Source: Pseudomonas linyingensis
GTDB taxonomy: Bacteria; Pseudomonadota; Gammaproteobacteria; Pseudomonadales; Pseudomonadaceae
Length of the DNA: 64,000 nt
Assembly: GCF_900109175.1 (NCBI RefSeq)
Contig: NZ_FNZE01000002.1
Coordinates: forward strand, 310,001 to 374,000
Reading direction: 5' to 3'
The notes beneath the pieces were generated by a model, which searched no databases, was not told the DNA's origin, and saw only the letters and a program-made list of their open reading frames with translations. Both the position numbers and the translations under genes were made by a program. Positions 3,414 to 63,622 of the stretch are shown piece by piece; the stretch's first letter is position 1; the number at the start of each line of letters is the position of its first letter.

Positions 3414-4691
3414 TCAGCTCCTGGCCGCCTCCAGCGCCTGGCCGAGGTCCTCGAGGATGTCATCGATGTGCTCGATGCCGATCGACAGGCGCACCAGGTC
3501 GCGGGACACGCCGGCGCGGGCCAGTTCCTCGTCGTTGAGCTGGCGGTGGGTGGTGGAGGCCGGGTGGCAGGCCAGCGACTTGGCGTCGCCGATGTTGACC
3601 AGGCGCACCACCAGCTTGAGCGCGTCGATGAAGCGCGCCGCCGCCTCGATGCCACCGACGATGCCGAACGACATGATCGAGGCCGGCTGGCCGCCCATGT
3701 AGCGCTGTGCCAGTTCGTGCTCGGGGTGGTCGACCAGGCCGGCGTACTTCACCCAGCTGACCTGCGGGTGCTCCTGCAGGAACTCGGCGACCTGGCGGGC
3801 GTTCTCGCAATGGCGCTCCATGCGCAGGGCCAGGGTCTCCAGGCCCTGGAGGATCAGGAAGGCATTGAACGGCGACAGCGCGGCGCCCATGTTGCGCAGC
3901 GGCACCACGCGGCAGCGGCCGATGAACGCCGCCGGGCCGAAGGCCTCGGTGTAGGTGACGCCGTGGTAGGACGGGTCGGGGGTGTTGAGCAGCGGGAAGC
4001 GCTCCTTGTTGTCCGCCCAGGGGAACTGGCCGGAGTCGACGACGATGCCTCCGATGCTGGTGCCGTGGCCACCGATGTACTTGGTCAGCGAGTGCACCAC
4101 GATGTCGGCGCCGTGCTCGAACGGCCGGCAGAGGATCGGCGTGGCCACGGTGTTGTCGACGATCAGCGGCACGCCGTGGCGGTGCGCGGCGTCGGCCAGC
4201 GCCTTGAGGTCGACGATGTTGCCCGCCGGGTTGCCGATCGATTCGCAGAACACTGCGCGGGTGTTGGCGTCGATCAGCGCCTCCAGGGCTGCGATGTCGT
4301 CGTGCGCGGCGAAGCGCACCTCGATGCCCTGGCGCGGCAGGGTATGGGCGAACAGGTTGTAGGTGCCGCCGTACAGCTTGGCCACCGAGACGATGTTGTC
4401 GCCGACCCCGGCGATGGTCTGGATCGCGTAGGTGATCGCCGCCATGCCCGAGGCCACCGCCAGCGCCGCCACGCCGCCTTCCAGCGCCGCCACGCGCTTC
4501 TCCAGCACGTCGGTGGTGGGGTTCATGATTCGCGTGTAGATGTTGCCGGCCACCTTGAGGTCGAACAGGTCGGCGCCGTGCTGGGTGTCGTCGAAGGCGT
4601 AGGAGGTGGTCTGGTAGATCGGCACCGCCACCGCCTTTGTGGTCGGGTCGGGGCTGTAACCGGCGTGGATGGCCAGGGTTTCCGCTTTCAT
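3414..4691 (-). CDS. metY: O-acetylhomoserine sulfhydrylase (homocysteine synthase, MetY)
   Basis: 425-residue PLP enzyme of the Cys/Met metabolism family. It makes homocysteine from O-acetyl- or O-succinyl-homoserine and sulfide. The sequence opens [20 protein letters not shown], has the [21 protein letters not shown] segment, and its PLP lysine is K204 in [14 protein letters not shown]. Length and motifs are full. The ATG at 4691 starts the conserved N-terminus; a longer frame adds 27 residues without similarity. Upstream 4692-4796 separates it from a same-strand transporter, so it may have its own promoter. Confidence 0.93.
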
Positions 4692-42839: not shown

Positions 42840-43712
42840 TCAAGCACAGCGGCGCTGCGTCACCCAATCTTCCCAGCGTACCCGCTCCTCGCGGATCAGC
42901 CAGCCATCCTGAGCGGCAAAACTTTCCGACAGCCACACCCCGTCGGTGGCGGCGCTGTGCAGTTCGCCCCGCTGCAGGGTGAACAGCTCGTTGTCGGGGT
43001 TGTCCGTCGGCAGGAGGTAGAGGTCCGGGCTTAGGCGGTCGAGGCGACTGAGCAGAACGCCGTCCTCCAGGCATTCGTCGCTGTGGAACAGGCTCGGCTC
43101 CTGCAAGTCTTCCGGCAACTCGAGGCGCAGATCGTAGACGAGCTGCAGGGAGGCGGTGGGCAGGTGCACGTAGGCCTGCGGGCGCTCCAGCAGCGGCAGG
43201 TCGCCGGCATGCACCCGACGGGCGGCGCCGGATAACGGGCTGAGCCGGTAGTGATACTGGGCGTGATGGGGCAGGGCGGCGCCGTGTGGAGTGGGCAGCC
43301 AGTGCTCGCCGAAGCGCCCGCCGAGCCAGCCGCGCGGGGTTTCCACCAGGCATTCCTCGGCGACCTCCTGCAGGGCGGTATGCAGCGGCAGGTGCAGCTC
43401 GCGACTCGGCACGTAACCGGAAATCAACTTGAGCACACAGTCGCCGCGATCCTGACGCTGCTGGCGGACCAGCAGCCAGTAGTCGCGACCTTGCCAGTTG
43501 AGGGTCAGGCGCACGGATACGCCGAGGTTGGCCAGCTCGCAGATAAAGTGCTGGGGGGGGGCGATCTGCAGCGGGCGGCGCCGCTCGAGCATCTGGCTGA
43601 AGTTCAGCGGGGCGCCGAGCGGCTGGTAGACCAGGCGCTGTGCGGTGGCTTCGACATGCAGCGGCTGGGTCTTGAAGGTGCTCGGGTCCTTGCGGGTGAG
43701 AATCCTGGGCAT
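42840..43712 (-). CDS. Conserved pseudomonad protein of unknown function
   Basis: 290 residues with no recognised domain and no signal peptide or membrane helix. It opens MPRILTRKDPSTFKTQPLHVEATA and has TALQEVAEECLVETPRGW in the middle, which superficially recalls a Nudix box (E-V-A-x-E-E-C-L) but lacks the full G-x5-E-x7-REUxEExGU pattern. It corresponds in position to P. aeruginosa PA4993. AAGGAG precedes the ATG at 43712. A run of nine C (coding strand) encodes AlaProPro near residue 50. It stands alone, since the next minus-strand genes end 127 bp upstream of it. Confidence 0.75.
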   Translation of the reverse strand: MPRILTRKDPSTFKTQPLHVEATAQRLVYQPLGAPLNFSQMLERRRPLQIAPPQHFICELANLGVSVRLTLNWQGRDYWLLVRQQRQDRGDCVLKLISGYVPSRELHLPLHTALQEVAEECLVETPRGWLGGRFGEHWLPTPHGAALPHHAQYHYRLSPLSGAARRVHAGDLPLLERPQAYVHLPTASLQLVYDLRLELPEDLQEPSLFHSDECLEDGVLLSRLDRLSPDLYLLPTDNPDNELFTLQRGELHSAATDGVWLSESFAAQDGWLIREERVRWEDWVTQRRCA

Positions 43713-43839
43713 GGCGACTCCTTGGGCTGACAAGAATGTATTGGAATTGTGCAGTCAGCCCCCGTCTGCATCACGCAGTCGCGGGGCTCGGGGTCAGGAC
43801 AGGTTAGCCGAGCCGGCCCGTGCTGTCTGTGTGCATCGG

Positions 43840-50928: not shown

Positions 50929-51942
50929 ATGACTGATAGAATGAAAGGTTTGAAATCTGCGGGTGCGGCAAGTGAATTGATTTTTGCTTGTTTTTTTGTT
51001 CTTGGAAGGTTGCAGCCTGCGCTGTATGCTATTTTGATATTTGCATTCTCAATGATTGTTTTTCCTTACTATGAGGGGGGTGATCAGGAGCATTATAGGG
51101 GTTTTTACGATGCGGTTTCAGGTATGCCTCTTTCGGAGGCATATGATTATTACGCGAGCGCTCTTGGTTCGAGAGAGCCTGTATATTTTTTTCTTGTTTA
51201 TGGCTTTTCTCCGTATCTTGAGAAAGATTTTCTTTTTTCATTAATCAATGCTCTGTTGGCTTTCGTTGTGGTTTCTTGGGTTGTTTCAAATAGGGTTAGA
51301 TTTTATATAGTGCCATTGGTTGTATTTAATTTTTATGCATTAGTTCTTTTTTTTCCAGCTGAAAGGTTAAAGTTGGCTGTTTTGTTGTTCATGATCGGTT
51401 GCTTTTGGCGGGGTTGGGTAAGGTACTTTTTTTGGGGGGGGGCGATTTTTTCGCATACTCAGACAATTTTGCTTGTGCTGAGCGCTCAGTCGCGAAGGGT
51501 GATTAGCCTTTTCGTTAGCTTGATGAGGGGTAAAGTTGATGGTGGAGGGGTTTTCTTGGTGTTGATTGCTGTGTTGTTGTGTGTTTTTGTTTTTTTTATG
51601 AGAGGTCATATTTTTGATAAGTTGGAATTTTATATGGAGTTCGGTGGGGTTGGGGCTGTGATTAAGCCTCTTATTCTTTCTGGTCTTACTGCTTATTGCG
51701 CTTCGGGGCGAAGGCTGGAATCGTTGATTTCTTCGTTACCATTAGTTGTCGTTTCCTTTTTTGTTGGGGATGAGCGCATTGTAATCTTTTCTTACTTTGT
51801 ATTCTTGTATTTTGCTTTAAATAGAAATCGTGGAGCCAATATTCCTGTTGTGCTAACGGGGGGTTATTTTTTGGTCAAAGGAGTATTTTTTCTAATTGGC
51901 ATAATAGAGTATGGGGATGGGTTTGCTGAATTGGTGTTTTAG
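50929..51942 (+). CDS. wzy: O-antigen polymerase Wzy (EpsG-like)
   Basis: 337-residue protein with about ten hydrophobic segments and the GGDQEHYRGFYDAVSG segment that resembles the periplasmic D-x-x-x-Y of EpsG/Wzy polymerases (GDxxxY). Wzy proteins share little sequence, so the call rests on topology, size and place between wzx and the glycosyltransferases. A T7-G9 run (51427-51442) encodes PheTrpGlyGlyAla and is a potential slippage site. An in-frame ATG at 50941 is an alternative start. Confidence 0.75.
   Translation: MTDRMKGLKSAGAASELIFACFFVLGRLQPALYAILIFAFSMIVFPYYEGGDQEHYRGFYDAVSGMPLSEAYDYYASALGSREPVYFFLVYGFSPYLEKDFLFSLINALLAFVVVSWVVSNRVRFYIVPLVVFNFYALVLFFPAERLKLAVLLFMIGCFWRGWVRYFFWGGAIFSHTQTILLVLSAQSRRVISLFVSLMRGKVDGGGVFLVLIAVLLCVFVFFMRGHIFDKLEFYMEFGGVGAVIKPLILSGLTAYCASGRRLESLISSLPLVVVSFFVGDERIVIFSYFVFLYFALNRNRGANIPVVLTGGYFLVKGVFFLIGIIEYGDGFAELVF
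51434..51442. repeat. G9 homopolymer in wzy (preceded by T7)
   Basis: Nine consecutive G, directly after seven T, in an otherwise AT-rich gene. The frame is currently open through the tract. A change of one base would truncate the polymerase after about residue 172. Confidence 0.85.
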
Positions 51943-54513: not shown

Positions 54514-55752
54514 ATGAAATCTAAGATACTTCTGGTTACTCAGTACTTCTGGCCCGAAAGTTTTATCATTAACGACATCGTTCGTAATTTGGTGGAGCTG
54601 GGGCATGAGGTTGTTGTTGCGACAGGTAAGCCAAACTACCCTGATGGAAAGATTTTCGATGGATACCGTGCGTGGGGAGGGCAGCGGGAGGTTTACCTCG
54701 GTAATGTTGAAGTGCTCCGTGTTCCTCTCTGGCCTAGAGGACAGGGTGGTGCAAAAAATCTAGTCATCAATTACCTGTCCTTTGTCCTGTCAGGGCTGAT
54801 TTTTTTCCCTTGGCTGCTACGTAAGCGTGAGTTTGACGCTGTTCTGGTGTTCGCTCCTTCACCCGTTATACAAGCGATTCCCGCTATTTTTCTAAAGTGG
54901 TTGAAGCGGGCAAAATTAGTGCTTTGGGTTCAAGATCTTTGGCCGGAAAGTCTTTTGGCTACTGGCTTTGTGAGAAAACCATACCTACTCAAGGTTGTGG
55001 GTTGGGTGGTTAAGGGCGTCTATCAGTGCTGCGACACTGTGTTGGTCCAGTCTCGCGCTTTTATCGACCCGGTGGCACGATATACGGATCGTAGCAAGAT
55101 CGTATACTACCCGAATTCGATTGATGCACGACCCCAGAAAGCTTCTATGCCAATTCCGCAGGGTCTGCGCGAGATTCTGGATCGTCATTTCTGTATTGTA
55201 TTTGCTGGAAACCTCGGTACGGCACAGGCACTGGACACATTGGTGCAGGCCGCCATGCAACTGCGTGATGATCCGGATATTCGTTTAGTTCTAGTCGGAA
55301 GCGGTAGTCGTCTTGACTGGCTCAAGTCTCAAAAGCAGGCTCATAGGCTTGATAATCTGATCCTCCCAGGTCGCTTTCAGGTGGAAGCGATGCCACAGAT
55401 ATACGAGCGCGCATCTGCATTGTTGATATCGCTTAACGACGATGAGATTTTTGCTCAAACGATCCCGAGCAAGACTCAAGCCTATCTAGCGGCAGGGCGG
55501 CCTATTATTGCCTGTATGAATGGCGAAGGCGCACGGCTGGTATGTGAGGCGCGAGCTGGCTTTGCTTCTCCAGCTGAAAAGGTGTTACCCCTTGTAGAGA
55601 ATATTCTTGCGATGAAGGCTTTGGGGGGGGTAGAGCGGGAGGCGATGGGCAAGTCGGGGCGGGAATATTTTGAGTCTCATTTTGAAATGAGGCGGCAGGT
55701 GCAAGTTTTAGTAGAGTTGCTTGCTAAAAAATCGACAGGTGGAGTTAGGTAA
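54514..55752 (+). CDS. GT4 glycosyltransferase of the WbuB/WbjE type
   Basis: 412-residue GT4 transferase. It opens KSKILLVTQYFWPESFIIND, with KLVLWVQDLWPESLLATGF, a signature of WbuB/WbjE-type transferases for N-acetyl-L-fucosamine or related L-6-deoxy-HexNAc sugars, and the donor region IPSKTQAYLAAGRPIIACMNGEGA. It directly precedes, by 2 bp, the nucleotide-sugar genes that would make such a donor, which supports the assignment. An 8-G run (55623-55630) near the C-terminus is an unusual feature. Confidence 0.83.
   Translation: MKSKILLVTQYFWPESFIINDIVRNLVELGHEVVVATGKPNYPDGKIFDGYRAWGGQREVYLGNVEVLRVPLWPRGQGGAKNLVINYLSFVLSGLIFFPWLLRKREFDAVLVFAPSPVIQAIPAIFLKWLKRAKLVLWVQDLWPESLLATGFVRKPYLLKVVGWVVKGVYQCCDTVLVQSRAFIDPVARYTDRSKIVYYPNSIDARPQKASMPIPQGLREILDRHFCIVFAGNLGTAQALDTLVQAAMQLRDDPDIRLVLVGSGSRLDWLKSQKQAHRLDNLILPGRFQVEAMPQIYERASALLISLNDDEIFAQTIPSKTQAYLAAGRPIIACMNGEGARLVCEARAGFASPAEKVLPLVENILAMKALGGVEREAMGKSGREYFESHFEMRRQVQVLVELLAKKSTGGVR
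55623..55630. repeat. G8 homopolymer in the WbuB/WbjE-like gene
   Basis: Eight consecutive G encoding LeuGlyGlyVal, about 40 codons before the stop. The reading frame is intact. Slippage would change only the C-terminal tail. Confidence 0.85.
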
Positions 55753-58931: not shown

Positions 58932-59888
58932 ATGAGAACTCTTCTGACCGGTGCCAGTGGCTTCCTTGGGGGGGCGGTACAGGCGCGTTTGCTGGCAGAT
59001 AATGCTGGCGAATTGCGTGCTGTCTTTCGTCGCTTGCCCGCATCATTGCCCAAAGGTGTGGCGGGCTTTGCTGTTCCGGATCTGGCAATTGACAGGGACT
59101 GGCGAGAACTGCTGGATGACGTGAACGTTGTAGTCCACTGTGCCGCGCGCGTCCACGTAATGGACGAGAAATCTGCCGACCCGTTGGCCGAGTTCCGCAA
59201 GGTCAATGTGGACGGGACTCTTAATCTGGCCCGGCAGGCTGCGGCAGCGGGTGTCAAGCGCTTCATCTTCATCAGTTCGATAAAAGTTAATGGCGAAGGC
59301 ACTGGGCGAGGCAAGCCCTACAAGGCTGACGATGTTCCAGCACCGGTCGATCCCTACGGAATTTCCAAGCTCGAAGCAGAGCAGGGGTTGCTGGCGCTGG
59401 CGGCGGAGAGCGGGATGGAGGTGGTGATACTCCGACCGGTCTTGGTCTACGGCCCGGGAGTGAAGGCTAATTTCCGCAGCGTGATGAGCTGGTTGAGCAA
59501 GGGGATTCCGTTACCACTCGGTTCCATTCGCAACAAGCGCAGTTTGGTCGCGTTGGATAATCTGGTCGATCTGATCGTGACCTGTATTGACCATACGGCG
59601 GCGGCCAATCAGGTATTCCTAGTCAGCGATGGCGAGGATCTGTCTACCACAGAGTTGCTGCGGCGCATGGGTGCAGCCCTGGGCAAGCCGGCACGCTTGC
59701 TACCAGTGCCGGAAGCTTGGCTAGATGGAGCTGCATGTCTGCTGGGCAAAGGGGCTATTGCCCAGAGATTGTGTGGTTCCTTGCAGGTGGATATTGAAAA
59801 GACCCGCCGCCTGCTCGGCTGGACACCACCGGTGACGGTCGACGATGCCCTGCGCAAGACTGCCCGCCATTTTCAGGAACATCGTTGA
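58932..59888 (+). CDS. NAD(P)-dependent 4-reductase (WbpV/WbpK type)
   Basis: 318-residue SDR. TGASGFLGGAVQARLL; FIFISSIKVNGEGT and PYGISKLEAEQGL carry the Ser-Tyr-Lys triad. This family follows WbpM: it reduces UDP-4-keto-6-deoxy-GlcNAc to UDP-D-QuiNAc (WbpV) or UDP-D-FucNAc (WbpK), the substrate of WbpL. Which of the two is made cannot be decided by eye. The next gene starts at the base after its stop. A G7 run lies at 58968-58974. Confidence 0.82.
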   Translation: MRTLLTGASGFLGGAVQARLLADNAGELRAVFRRLPASLPKGVAGFAVPDLAIDRDWRELLDDVNVVVHCAARVHVMDEKSADPLAEFRKVNVDGTLNLARQAAAAGVKRFIFISSIKVNGEGTGRGKPYKADDVPAPVDPYGISKLEAEQGLLALAAESGMEVVILRPVLVYGPGVKANFRSVMSWLSKGIPLPLGSIRNKRSLVALDNLVDLIVTCIDHTAAANQVFLVSDGEDLSTTELLRRMGAALGKPARLLPVPEAWLDGAACLLGKGAIAQRLCGSLQVDIEKTRRLLGWTPPVTVDDALRKTARHFQEHR

Positions 59889-60923
59889 ATGACTTTCTGG
59901 TTTCTTCTGCCGGTCGTTGCCGGCCTTTCCCTCATGCTGACCGGTGGCTTGCGTCACTATGCCTTGGCGCGCAGCCTCATTGATATTCCCAACGCCCGGA
60001 GTTCGCACAGCGTGCCCACTCCACGCGGAGGAGGGGTGGCAATAGTTTTGAGCTTCCTGCTGGTCTTGCCGCTGCTGCCAGTGCTTGGTCTGGTGGACTG
60101 GGAACTGGTCAAGGCGCTATTGGGCACCGGCGCGGGCATCGCGCTACTTGGTTTTCTCGATGATCATGGCCATATCGCTGCCCGATGGCGACTGCTTGGC
60201 CATTTCGCTGGCGCGGGCTGGGCGTTATTCTGGTTGGGTGGTCTGCCGCCACTGATGATATTCGGTCACTCGCTAGAGCTGGGTTGGTTCGGACATGGGG
60301 TGGCGGCTGTATATCTGGTCTGGCTGCTCAATCTGTACAACTTCATGGATGGCATCGACGGTCTTGCAAGTGTCGAGGCTATCTGTGTCTGTGTGGGGGG
60401 GGGGCTGCTGTTTGCGTTGCTGGGACTCGAGGAGTCGCATCACTCGGAAGGTATCTGGGTGCTTCTGCTACTGGTCTGTGCAGTGGCTGGATTCCTGTTC
60501 TGGAATTTTCCACCTGCGCAGATTTTCATGGGCGATGCCGGTAGCGGGTTTCTCGGGGTTGCCCTTGGTATCCTGTCGCTGCAGGCGGCTTGGGTCGCAC
60601 CGCAATTACTGTGGAGCTGGGTGATTTTGCTCGGTGTGTTCATCGTCGACGCTACATTCACCTTACTGCGCAGACTGTTGCGTGGCGACAAGGTTTACGA
60701 GGCCCACCGCAGTCATGCATATCAATACGCTTCCCGTCGGTTTGGTCGGCACTTGCCGGTGACCCTGGTTGTCGGGGCGATCAATCTGTTCTGGCTGCTG
60801 CCCATCGCACTGTGGGTGGGGGGGGGCGGTGTGGATGGTCTCCTTGGAGTGGTGATTGCCTACTCTCCGCTGCTGTTGCTGGCCGTCAAATTTCATGCAG
60901 GTGAATTGGAGAGCAAGGTATGA
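59889..60923 (+). CDS. wbpL: Undecaprenyl-phosphate glycosyl-1-phosphate transferase (WbpL-like)
   Basis: 344-residue polyprenyl-phosphate HexNAc-1-phosphate transferase of the WecA/WbpL class, with about ten membrane segments. Motifs: IDIPNARSSHSVPTPRGGG, ALLGFLDDHGHIAARWRLLGH (DD motif), LLNLYNFMDGIDGLAS (NxxNxxDGIDG) and AQIFMGDAGSGFLG. It loads the first sugar phosphate on undecaprenyl phosphate and so starts the O-unit. Two long G runs (10 and 9) lie inside the gene. It overlaps the next gene by 4 nt (ATGA). Confidence 0.93.
   Translation: MTFWFLLPVVAGLSLMLTGGLRHYALARSLIDIPNARSSHSVPTPRGGGVAIVLSFLLVLPLLPVLGLVDWELVKALLGTGAGIALLGFLDDHGHIAARWRLLGHFAGAGWALFWLGGLPPLMIFGHSLELGWFGHGVAAVYLVWLLNLYNFMDGIDGLASVEAICVCVGGGLLFALLGLEESHHSEGIWVLLLLVCAVAGFLFWNFPPAQIFMGDAGSGFLGVALGILSLQAAWVAPQLLWSWVILLGVFIVDATFTLLRRLLRGDKVYEAHRSHAYQYASRRFGRHLPVTLVVGAINLFWLLPIALWVGGGGVDGLLGVVIAYSPLLLLAVKFHAGELESKV
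60395..60404. repeat. G10 homopolymer in wbpL
   Basis: Ten consecutive G, encoding ValGlyGlyGlyLeu near residue 171, just after the DGIDG motif. Longest run of this kind seen in the window. The gene is in frame at this length; 9 or 11 G would destroy it. Confidence 0.9.
60818..60826. repeat. G9 homopolymer in wbpL
   Basis: Nine consecutive G in the codons for ValGlyGlyGlyGly near residue 312, about 30 codons before the stop. In frame as read. Confidence 0.9.
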
Positions 60924-61498
60924 CTAAGCGAACCTTGCTGGTTCTGGGTGCCGGAGGGCATGGCAAGGCTGTGGCCGAGGCTGCGTTGCTGTCTGGAGCG
61001 TGGCAGAGAGTGCTGTTCGTTGATGATCGCTGGCCAGAGCTGCGCGAGTCGTTCGGTCTGCCGGTAGTCGCCAACCTGGCCGGTTTGCCCGCAGTGACAG
61101 GGCAGGCGGAGGCGGCTATTGCTGCGGTGGGAAGCAATGCCCTACGCGAGCAATGGCTGGCGGCGATTCGCTCGGTCGGGTTGCCGGTAGCTACGGTGAT
61201 TCACCCTCGTGCCTGTGTCAGCACCTCGGCCCGCATCGGTGACGGCACTGCGATCATGGCCATGGCGATGGTCGGGGTTGACGTGCAGATCGGTGAGGGC
61301 GCCATCGTCAATGCTGGTGCGGTGGTCGATCATGACGCCTGCTTGGGGGACCTTGCCCATTTGGGTGTGGGGGTGAACATTGCTGGTGGTGTGCGAGTCG
61401 GGGCTTGCGCCTGGCTGCAGGCAGGATGCTCTGCTGGTTATCGTGTTGTTGTGGCCGATGGGGCGCTGCATGCGCCCGGAACAGCGTTGAGTGTGTAG
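60920..61498 (+). CDS. NeuD/PglD-family sugar acyltransferase
   Basis: 192 residues. N-terminal Rossmann-like part (RTLLVLGAGGHGKAVAEAA) and C-terminal left-handed beta helix (hexapeptide repeats from about residue 95; NAGAVVDHDACLGDLAHLGVG contains the catalytic-type His of PglD/NeuD). PglD acetylates a UDP-4-amino sugar and NeuD sialic acid. No 4-aminotransferase is present in this locus, so an O-acetylation role or use of an amino sugar made elsewhere is more likely. Overlaps wbpL by 4 nt. Confidence 0.85.
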   Translation: MTKRTLLVLGAGGHGKAVAEAALLSGAWQRVLFVDDRWPELRESFGLPVVANLAGLPAVTGQAEAAIAAVGSNALREQWLAAIRSVGLPVATVIHPRACVSTSARIGDGTAIMAMAMVGVDVQIGEGAIVNAGAVVDHDACLGDLAHLGVGVNIAGGVRVGACAWLQAGCSAGYRVVVADGALHAPGTALSV

Positions 61499-61615: not shown

Positions 61616-63622
61616 ATGTTGCGCGAGAGGTTGTTGGGGCTGCGGCGGCGCGACAAGCGCCTGCTGCAGGTAGCGGCGGATATTGTGCTGGTGTGGCTAG
61701 CCATGTGGCTGGCCTTCGTGGTGCGTTTGGGTACTGATGAGCTGATCGATCCGCTGGGCGGGCATCTGTGGCTGTTCGCGCTGGCTCCTGTGTTGGCTAT
61801 TCCGTTGTTCGTCAGATTCGGCATGTACCGGGCGGTGATGCGTTATCTGGGCAACGATGCCCTGTTGGCGATTGTCAAGGCGGTGACCCTGTCGTCCCTG
61901 TTGCTGGCTCTCGCGGTCTACTGGCATCGCGACGCGCCGGCTTTTGTGCCGCGTTCGTTGGTCTTCAATTATTGGTGGCTGACTTTGGTGCTGATCGGTG
62001 GGCTGCGCTTGCTGATGCGCCAGTACTTCATGGGCGATTGGTACGCAGCCGGGTTGGGCATTCCCTTCGTCGGGCGAGACGATACACTGCCTCGGGTGGC
62101 CATCTATGGTGCCGGCGCTGCGGGCAACCAGCTAGCTGCTGCCCTGCGCATGGGCAAGGCCATGCGGCCGGTGGCCTTCATCGACGACGACAGCAGTATC
62201 GCCAACCGTGCCATCGCCGGTCTCAAGGTCTACAAACCCAAGCACATTCAGCAGATGATCGAGGAAACCAGCGCCAGCGAGGTGTTGCTGGCGATTCCCT
62301 CGGCTACGCGCGGGCGTCGGCGGGAGATACTGACTGCGCTGGAGCCCTTTCCGCTGCACGTACGCAGCGTGCCAGGCTTCATGGACCTGGCCAGTGGGCG
62401 GGTCAAGGTCGAGGATATCCAGGAGGTGGATATCGCCGACCTGCTCGGACGCGATGCGGTGGCGCCGCGGGTCGAGCTGTTCCAGCGCTGCATCCGTGGC
62501 CAGGTGGTGATGGTCACCGGCGCGGGCGGATCGATCGGCTCCGAGCTGTGCCGGCAAATCCTCACCCAGGCGCCGACCGCGCTGATCCTGTTCGAGCACA
62601 GCGAGTTCAATCTGTACAGCATCCATCAGGAGCTGGAGCGGCGTATCCAGCGCGAGGCGCTCAACCTGCAACTGGTGCCGATCCTCGGTTCGATTCGTAA
62701 TCCTGGGCGCCTGCTGGACGTGATGCGTACTTGGAAGGTGGATACTGTTTACCACGCGGCAGCCTATAAGCATGTGCCGATAGTCGAGCACAATGTTGCC
62801 GAGGGCGTGTTGAACAATGTGCTCGGCACCCTGAACACCGCTCAGGCGGCCATCAAGTCCGGGGTCCAGCATTTTGTGCTGATCTCCACCGACAAGGCGG
62901 TACGGCCGACCAATGTGATGGGCAGCACCAAGCGTCTGGCTGAGATGGTGCTGCAGGCGCTCAGTGGCGAGCCCGCACCCCTGCTCTACGACGATGCCAG
63001 CGGTGTGCATCAGGTCAACAAGACCCGCTTTACCATGGTGCGTTTCGGCAATGTGCTGGGTTCGTCCGGCTCGGTGATCCCGCTGTTCCGCGAGCAGATC
63101 AAGCGCGGTGGGCCGGTGACGGTGACTCATCCGAAGATCACCCGCTATTTTATGACCATCCCCGAGGCGGCGCAGCTTGTGATTCAGGCCGGCTCCATGG
63201 GGCAGGGGGGCGATGTGTTCGTGCTCGACATGGGCGAGCCGGTGCGCATCGCCGAGCTGGCGGAGAAGATGATTCACCTGTCGGGGCTGTCGGTGCGTAG
63301 TGAGAAGAATCCCAGGGGAGATGTCGCCGTCGAGTTCAGTGGTTTACGCCCGGGCGAGAAACTCTACGAGGAGCTGCTGATCGGCGACAACGTGACGCCT
63401 ACCGAGCACCCGATGATCATGCGCGCCAACGAGGAACACCTGCCATGGGACGAGTTCCGTCAGGTAGTGGCGGAGCTGGTGGCGGCGGTCAAGGGCGACG
63501 ACTTCCAACGCGTGCGGCAGATCCTTCGTGCGACGGTAGATGGCTATGTCCCTGAGGAGGAGATTGTCGACTGGATTCACCAGCAGCGTCAGATCGCAGG
63601 CGAAGGGCCAGTGGCCTCCTGA
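61616..63622 (+). CDS. wbpM: UDP-GlcNAc C6-dehydratase WbpM
   Basis: 668-residue membrane-anchored dehydratase. Four hydrophobic helices in residues about 15-140, a CoA-binding-like domain (VAIYGAGAAGNQLAAALRMG, about 165-275), then the SDR domain: MVTGAGGSIGSELCRQIL, VYHAAAYKHVPIVEHN, and STDKAVRPTNVMGSTKRLAE with the WbpM-type S-M-K triad. It makes UDP-4-keto-6-deoxy-GlcNAc for the initiating sugar. Usual last gene of pseudomonad O-antigen loci. AAAGGA precedes the ATG. Confidence 0.96.
   Translation: MLRERLLGLRRRDKRLLQVAADIVLVWLAMWLAFVVRLGTDELIDPLGGHLWLFALAPVLAIPLFVRFGMYRAVMRYLGNDALLAIVKAVTLSSLLLALAVYWHRDAPAFVPRSLVFNYWWLTLVLIGGLRLLMRQYFMGDWYAAGLGIPFVGRDDTLPRVAIYGAGAAGNQLAAALRMGKAMRPVAFIDDDSSIANRAIAGLKVYKPKHIQQMIEETSASEVLLAIPSATRGRRREILTALEPFPLHVRSVPGFMDLASGRVKVEDIQEVDIADLLGRDAVAPRVELFQRCIRGQVVMVTGAGGSIGSELCRQILTQAPTALILFEHSEFNLYSIHQELERRIQREALNLQLVPILGSIRNPGRLLDVMRTWKVDTVYHAAAYKHVPIVEHNVAEGVLNNVLGTLNTAQAAIKSGVQHFVLISTDKAVRPTNVMGSTKRLAEMVLQALSGEPAPLLYDDASGVHQVNKTRFTMVRFGNVLGSSGSVIPLFREQIKRGGPVTVTHPKITRYFMTIPEAAQLVIQAGSMGQGGDVFVLDMGEPVRIAELAEKMIHLSGLSVRSEKNPRGDVAVEFSGLRPGEKLYEELLIGDNVTPTEHPMIMRANEEHLPWDEFRQVVAELVAAVKGDDFQRVRQILRATVDGYVPEEEIVDWIHQQRQIAGEGPVAS

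Follow-up and report, generated by a model that had tools for sequence, protein, structure and literature searches.

Among the described systems closest to the locus studied here, wbeL and manA of Vibrio cholerae O1 carry a homopolymer in an O-antigen gene, and the loss of one base truncates the product and changes the O-antigen phage receptor (PMC3441752). Slippage-driven O-antigen loss is already known in Pseudomonas: in wzy of P. aeruginosa PAO1 it is reported to give O-antigen-defective, phage-resistant cells (PMC10714927). Frameshifts in a poly-G tract are described for flhB, a coding gene of P. putida DOT-T1E (cited in PMC2831843), and four single-nucleotide changes in mononucleotide stretches of phage-resistant variants of P. 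aeruginosa PcyII-10 are termed phase-variation mutations by their authors (PMC6467409). Phase variation is usually described for pathogens with small genomes (PMC11475388).

P. aeruginosa depends on WbpL for both its O-polysaccharides, as plant-associated pseudomonads do for their O-polysaccharide, and deletion of the wbpL gene is reported to abolish O-polysaccharide in P. aeruginosa, P. cichorii and P. syringae (PMC8406328, PMC6804347). A mutational hotspot in this gene would therefore yield frequent rough cells, resistant to O-antigen-dependent phages. In P. syringae wbpL is expressed heterogeneously, with ON and OFF cells (PMC12280811). None of the open-licence papers listed by the literature searches deals with poly-G phase variation of wbpL. 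The wbpL-type gene of Pseudomonas linyingensis resembles the V. cholerae genes in carrying homopolymers within an O-antigen gene where the loss of one base is predicted to truncate the product, flhB in that they are poly-G runs in a Pseudomonas coding gene, and PAO1 wzy in the outcome proposed for slippage.

The wbpL gene and its two poly-G runs

The window, which is the whole stretch of 64,000 nucleotides analysed, contains an O-antigen cluster whose upstream part encodes Wzz, a Wzx-like flippase and a group-1 glycosyltransferase. The wbpM-type gene (Table 1) is the usual terminus of O-antigen clusters. The wbpL product matches the Pfam family Glycos_transf_4 (1.5e-34, 119.8 bits for a cut-off of 27) and stays below the equivalog thresholds of WecA (ECA_wecA, 59 bits for a cut-off of 326) and MraY (62 bits for a cut-off of 192), which identifies it by sequence as a predicted member of this family that is neither of the two enzymes. 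Its relatives with solved structures are MraY and dolichyl-phosphate GlcNAc-1-phosphotransferases. The name WbpL comes from the initial annotation and from the gene context, which it fits; no database search returned it. The motifs DDH (residues 91-93), NFMDG (151-155), FMGDAGSGFLG (213-223) and HRSH (273-276) are invariant in 26 aligned sequences. Among the matches listed, the genus has one close homologue, 83% identical to the protein, and the six that follow within the family are 77-81% identical.

Table 1. Genes and homopolymeric runs of the O-antigen cluster, numbered along the window
Feature	Position	Strand	Remarks
Wzy-like ORF, 337 aa	50929-51942	+	call rests on position and hydrophobic sequence; no Pfam/NCBIfam match
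T7 followed by G9	51427-51442	+	compound slippery site in the Wzy-like ORF; G9 at 51434-51442
Group-1 glycosyltransferase ORF, 412 aa	54514-55752	+	G8 at 55623-55630, near the 3' end
NAD-dependent epimerase	58932-59888	+	directly upstream of wbpL; G7 run at 58968-58974
wbpL-type gene, 344 aa	59889-60923	+	polyprenyl-phosphate sugar-1-phosphate transferase family; frame intact (ON)
T1, G10	60395-60404	+	wbpL codons 169-172; middle of predicted helix 157-177, presumably transmembrane
T2, G9	60818-60826	+	wbpL codons 310-313; end of next-to-last predicted helix 288-311 and loop before last helix 317-334
PglD-like acetyltransferase ORF	60920-61498	+	ATG overlaps the wbpL stop (ATGA)
wbpM-type nucleotide-sugar dehydratase (Polysacc_synt_2)	61616-63622	+	after the PglD-like ORF

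The initial annotation had reported a G10 and a G9 inside wbpL, and both are present to the base and in frame. T1 reads GTG GGG GGG GGG CTG (V-G-G-G-L) and T2 reads GTG GGG GGG GGC GGT (V-G-G-G-G). Helices were taken from an AlphaFold2 model of WbpL (mean pLDDT 86, 26 sequences). On translation, one G less or more in T1 leaves 244 or 218 residues that lack the conserved stretches 206-223 and 270-283, and the same changes in T2 leave 321 or 338 residues. The proposal that a slip at T1 would break the gene holds up, the predicted truncation coming ahead of family-invariant motifs, and so does its companion that a slip at T2 would alter the carboxyl terminus only; according to the model, the last predicted helix (317-334) alone would be removed. 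One G less or more gives 183 or 192 of 337 residues for the G9 of the Wzy-like ORF, and 372 or 386 of 412 residues for the G8 of the glycosyltransferase ORF. Since the start codon of the PglD-like ORF overlaps the wbpL stop, premature termination of wbpL could also reduce expression of the acetyltransferase.

From 0.67 at 1-47 kb of the window, the GC content drops to 0.50 at 47-59 kb, with 0.58 in wbpL, and a close wbpL homologue is present in two of eight genomes of the genus, this one counted. Both observations fit the earlier suggestion of a recent import. GC3 is 0.37-0.49 in the five ORFs between 49600 and 55752, typical of an imported O-antigen core. The initial annotation had also remarked that both runs use GGG for glycine in a genome that favours GGC. 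That preference is real in the sampled genome (GGC 61% and GGG 9% of glycine codons; 146 ORFs, 260 kb) and does not extend to the O-antigen cluster, where GGG accounts for 30% and GGC for 26%, so that GGG glycine codons are unremarkable there.

Long G runs in the genome, the cluster and the wbpL family

Nine distinct G/C runs of at least 9 occur in the genome (4.72 Mb, 43 contigs). The window contains four of these: wbpL accounts for two and the Wzy-like ORF for one. If nine runs were placed at random, any pair within 423 bp, as in wbpL, would occur with P 0.006, three within 9.4 kb, as in the O-antigen cluster, with P 0.001 and four within 17.3 kb, as in the window, with P 5.5e-5, all three values being uncorrected and the locus chosen as extreme. 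Shuffling synonymous codons within wbpL gives two runs of at least 9 at P=0.0012, uncorrected and for a gene selected for looking extreme. Redrawing its codons gives two such runs with P 0.0001 under genome usage, 0.008 under cluster usage and 0.0027 under wbpL's own usage, again uncorrected. With cluster codon usage, a run of at least 10 arises in 9% of random codings of the WbpL protein. The wbpL runs are unusual, yet not extreme given the codon usage of the cluster.

The genome overall has no surplus of long G runs. Exact G9 runs number six, versus 1, 9, 3, 4, 8, 7 and 14 in seven congeners of 3.2-4.6 Mb, and exact G8 runs number 21 versus 11-28; a whole-genome G-run artefact was rejected on these counts. 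Some of the genome's runs of at least 9 fall outside long genes. One G9 lies in frame in the single-copy tilS (L004 1501-1509; G000:C25:16415-16423). TilS is generally essential and switching it off is presumably lethal, so this run is unlikely to serve as a useful switch, and runs of this length in the only tilS are tolerated even where an OFF state would presumably kill. A G/C10 (L002 1501-1510; G000:C12:2867-2876) lies inside an apparent repeat-element copy whose ends are of the TTTGCAAAAGGGGGG type. The G9 on the plus strand at 43553-43561 is a C9 in the coding strand of a minus-strand ORF (42840-43733, 297 aa, no Pfam/NCBIfam match).

The cluster differs from its surroundings. In the background, 260 kb of the window's own contig, runs of at least 6 G are avoided (9 observed versus 34 expected in 146 ORFs, 209 kb), these ORFs having been picked by length alone, like those of the relatives below. 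Such a choice lets in some spurious ORFs and leaves out some real genes: no ORF in the chosen sets includes the minus-strand C9. The 25 ORFs at 1-47 kb of the window have none versus 8 expected, and the 13 genes at 47-63.7 kb have 14 versus 8. The same 13 genes hold three runs of at least 9 versus 0.44 expected (P 0.003, uncorrected, locus chosen as extreme), and a hand-listed set of cluster genes gives three versus 0.47 (P 0.006, uncorrected). Around the wbpL of congener G007, 31 ORFs in 50 kb have 3 runs of at least 6 versus 7 expected. Around 80 homologues, the ORFs that share the strand of wbpL (727 kb) display mild avoidance, with 99 runs of at least 6 versus 135 expected and none of at least 9 versus 2.5 expected. 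Comparison of runs of at least 9 in the cluster with these 80 neighbourhoods (Fisher 8e-6, uncorrected, locus chosen as extreme), together with the excess over codon expectation, makes this O-antigen cluster an outlier. The cluster-level excess is the best argument for the initial annotation, which had suggested that the tracts are either kept on purpose or tolerated in a recent import, and leaves room for the first of these; plain drift does not fully account for the excess of runs of at least 9.

The picture is different in the wbpL family. We assembled 188 homologues, consisting of the best 80 of 577 relatives, 19 from a further search, that of G007, and 28 fetched loci (of 30) plus 60 other listed places from a search that matched 261 of 398 genomes; removal of 19 that were identical over the compared stretch left 169 distinct sequences. 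At the T1 site, two of them have a G8, and at the T2 site none of the 169 has a run of at least 8. The usual reading in close homologues is VCLGGALL for the first site and WVGLGGVDG for the second, with equal length and other bases. T1 requires Gly172, present in 3 of the 169, and T2 requires Gly312, present in less than 5% of homologues; both sites differ from the family by changes to G that preserve length, among them the replacement of a commonly conserved Leu by Gly. Anywhere in the 169 genes, codon shuffling predicts 12.3 runs of at least 8, 4.0 of at least 9 and 87 of at least 6, and 9, 2 and 66 are observed. Long runs concentrate, in frame, at three Gly-rich places near residues 47, 78 and 169. 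Codon usage accounts for this distribution across the family, these sequences give no hint of upkeep, and upkeep of poly-G as a general property of wbpL was rejected, the 169 homologues having no excess. The idea that the tracts are kept on purpose thus finds no backing in the family: the T1 and T2 runs are absent from the closest homologues, long runs are not in excess and each run rests on a family-rare glycine.

Other relatives carry long runs elsewhere. The wbpL genes of L111 (G10, 1495-1504) and L164 (G9) have theirs in frame around query residues 77-79, which form a separate Gly-rich hot site; L027 has a G9 outside long ORFs, and another part of the L111 contig (L121) has a G12. In wbpM homologues the motif Gly-Gln-Gly-Gly-Asp is repeatedly encoded with a G8 (L022 8724; L025 8702; L074 8721). 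All 188 wbpL homologues align as one piece over at least 323 query residues, in searches that rank full-length matches first, so that broken copies may be under-counted. Nine of the listed matches were flagged for internal stops and might have been OFF alleles; this was rejected after inspection of seven, where the stop was each time the natural end of the gene.

One relative has an epimerase gene out of frame. In the locus L141, which comes from a member of the same family with a one-contig genome, the epimerase gene preceding wbpL (reverse strand 209-1166) has a G10 at locus position 3768-3777, in the 5' Rossmann loop. Its ATG reads through the run to a stop after 14 codons, and the conserved body is in a different frame that has no start codon before the run. 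Among 96 distinct homologues the epimerase is broken at the run in this one, and intact copies exist; L018 has an in-frame G8 at the same loop. At eleven other runs of at least 8 in the relatives' loci, matches on both sides are strongest in one same frame. The epimerase gene, too, can carry a long G run, and the L141 copy reflects one of two things, a naturally occurring OFF allele or a miscalled homopolymer in the assembly.

Slippage and the origin of the runs

The rate at which such runs slip can be roughly estimated from P. aeruginosa. In repair-deficient lines a 9-bp run is reported to mutate 0.13 times per generation and 96% of indels fall in G:C runs, mostly of 5-7 bp, with rates that plateau from 7 bp; loss of mismatch repair raises indels 230-fold (PMC4702332). 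Division of one figure by the other suggests about 6e-4 slips per generation with repair, a rough extrapolation because the repair-proficient lines, as reported, had only one homopolymer indel (PMC4702332), and a true rate a hundredfold lower would not surprise us. Here mutS (863 aa) and mutL (654 aa) are open frames with no stops; they are predicted to be intact, and loss of mismatch repair was rejected as the cause of the runs.

We favour the hypothesis that the wbpL runs are tolerated, lineage-private, slippage-prone hotspots that probably arose by drift in a weakly codon-adapted cluster. Drift in this horizontally mobile O-antigen cluster would have produced both runs: with GGG common, a single added glycine may have closed the gap in each of the two Gly-rich stretches and left an uninterrupted run, making T1 a mutational hotspot as a side effect. 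A neutral origin is preferred because the cluster does not avoid G runs and uses GGG for 30% of its glycines, because the family has no upkeep of them and because a G9 is tolerated in tilS. As evidence for the hotspot itself we count the extrapolated slip rate and, next to wbpL in a relative, the L141 epimerase as a natural example, with its ATG and body in different frames at a G10. Gain or loss of one base at T1 during replication would put wbpL out of frame and stop O-antigen initiation, giving a rough cell devoid of the O-antigen phage receptor, and a second slip would restore the gene. Slips at T2, by taking away the last helix, would be likely though not certain to inactivate the enzyme.

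The runs could instead form a selected contingency locus, T1, T2 and the G9 of the Wzy-like ORF being kept so that every clone contains both O-antigen-positive and O-antigen-negative cells at all times, for instance against O-antigen phages. We regard this as possible though unlikely. The excess of runs of at least 9 in the cluster, over codon expectation and over the 80 neighbourhoods, argues for it, as do the closeness of the two runs in wbpL and of the three in the cluster, the common service of all affected genes to one surface polymer, the out-of-frame L141 epimerase, and the precedents of poly-A in V. cholerae O1 wbeL and manA (PMC3441752) and of poly-G in P. putida flhB (cited in PMC2831843). 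Against it stand the near absence of the runs at both sites in the 169 homologues and the lack of a family excess, the occurrence of equally long runs in tilS and outside long genes, and the open mutS and mutL. T1 and T2 lie in the middle and at the 3' end of the gene, unlike the 5' bias reported for poly-A/T tracts (PMC2831843), and coding indels are described as counter-selected, with intergenic ones retained, in mutation-accumulation lines of P. aeruginosa (PMC8115180). An extension that we find slightly less likely still makes the whole cluster a multi-tract contingency array, with independent poly-G switches in the Wzy-like gene (G9), in wbpL (G10 and G9) and perhaps in the glycosyltransferase gene (G8). 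If it were true, one strain would lose and regain O-antigen at initiation or polymerisation and the runs would have been made perfect through repeated OFF/ON slips. Such a history would account for the rare glycines and for interrupting bases having been lost with no change in length, and the L141 epimerase would represent the OFF state of a comparable switch.

A purely inert product of chance, from cluster codon usage and Gly-rich helices, with a negligible slip rate under intact repair, appears improbable. It agrees with the 9% of random codings that give a run of at least 10 and the 0.8% that give two of at least 9 under cluster usage, as well as with the recurrence of G8 at Gly-rich places of wbpL and wbpM homologues. 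It is at odds with the high rates of long G:C runs in P. aeruginosa, at least without repair (PMC4702332), and with the report that wzy loss, mainly by single-base indels in homopolymers, explains the frequent resistance of PAO1 to a phage cocktail (PMC10714927). A sequencing or assembly artefact is very improbable: substitution-type miscalls to G in a G-rich context would match the length-preserving changes to G at both sites, with Leu turned to Gly, but the genome-wide counts of G9 and G8 are within the congener range, sampled genes avoid G runs and the wbpL frame is intact. The presence of a C after every run of at least 9 (9 of 9 here) was considered as a mark of artefact and dropped because the complete congeners G002 and G007 also prefer C and GGC is the favoured codon.

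Comparison with known homopolymer loci

If the runs switch, O-antigen initiation would be controlled by slippage in a 4.7-Mb genome with open mismatch-repair genes. If they are merely tolerated, weak codon adaptation of an imported surface cluster would create mutational hotspots without selection for them. Judged from their sequence, the wbpL tracts are at most a candidate addition to the known homopolymer contingency loci, from which they differ in several respects. The tract of flhB is at the 5' end of a flagellar export gene (cited in PMC2831843), whereas those of wbpL are in the middle and at the 3' end of a lipopolysaccharide gene. The PAO1 case affects wzy, not wbpL, and is presented as loss of function rather than as a reversible switch (PMC10714927), and PcyII-10 is reported to lose wbpL by deletion, not by slippage (PMC6467409). 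The heterogeneity of wbpL in P. syringae concerns the same gene at the level of expression, and the words homopolymer, tract, slipped and frameshift are absent from the main text of that report (PMC12280811). In V. cholerae O1 the tracts are poly-A of 8-9, the one of wbeL is conserved in 37 O1 strains, variants were isolated and reversion of manA is reported (PMC3441752), while the wbpL tracts, known here from one genome sequence, are poly-G at sites unshared with close homologues. They further differ from the V. cholerae tracts in that the poly-G sits in the initiating transferase.
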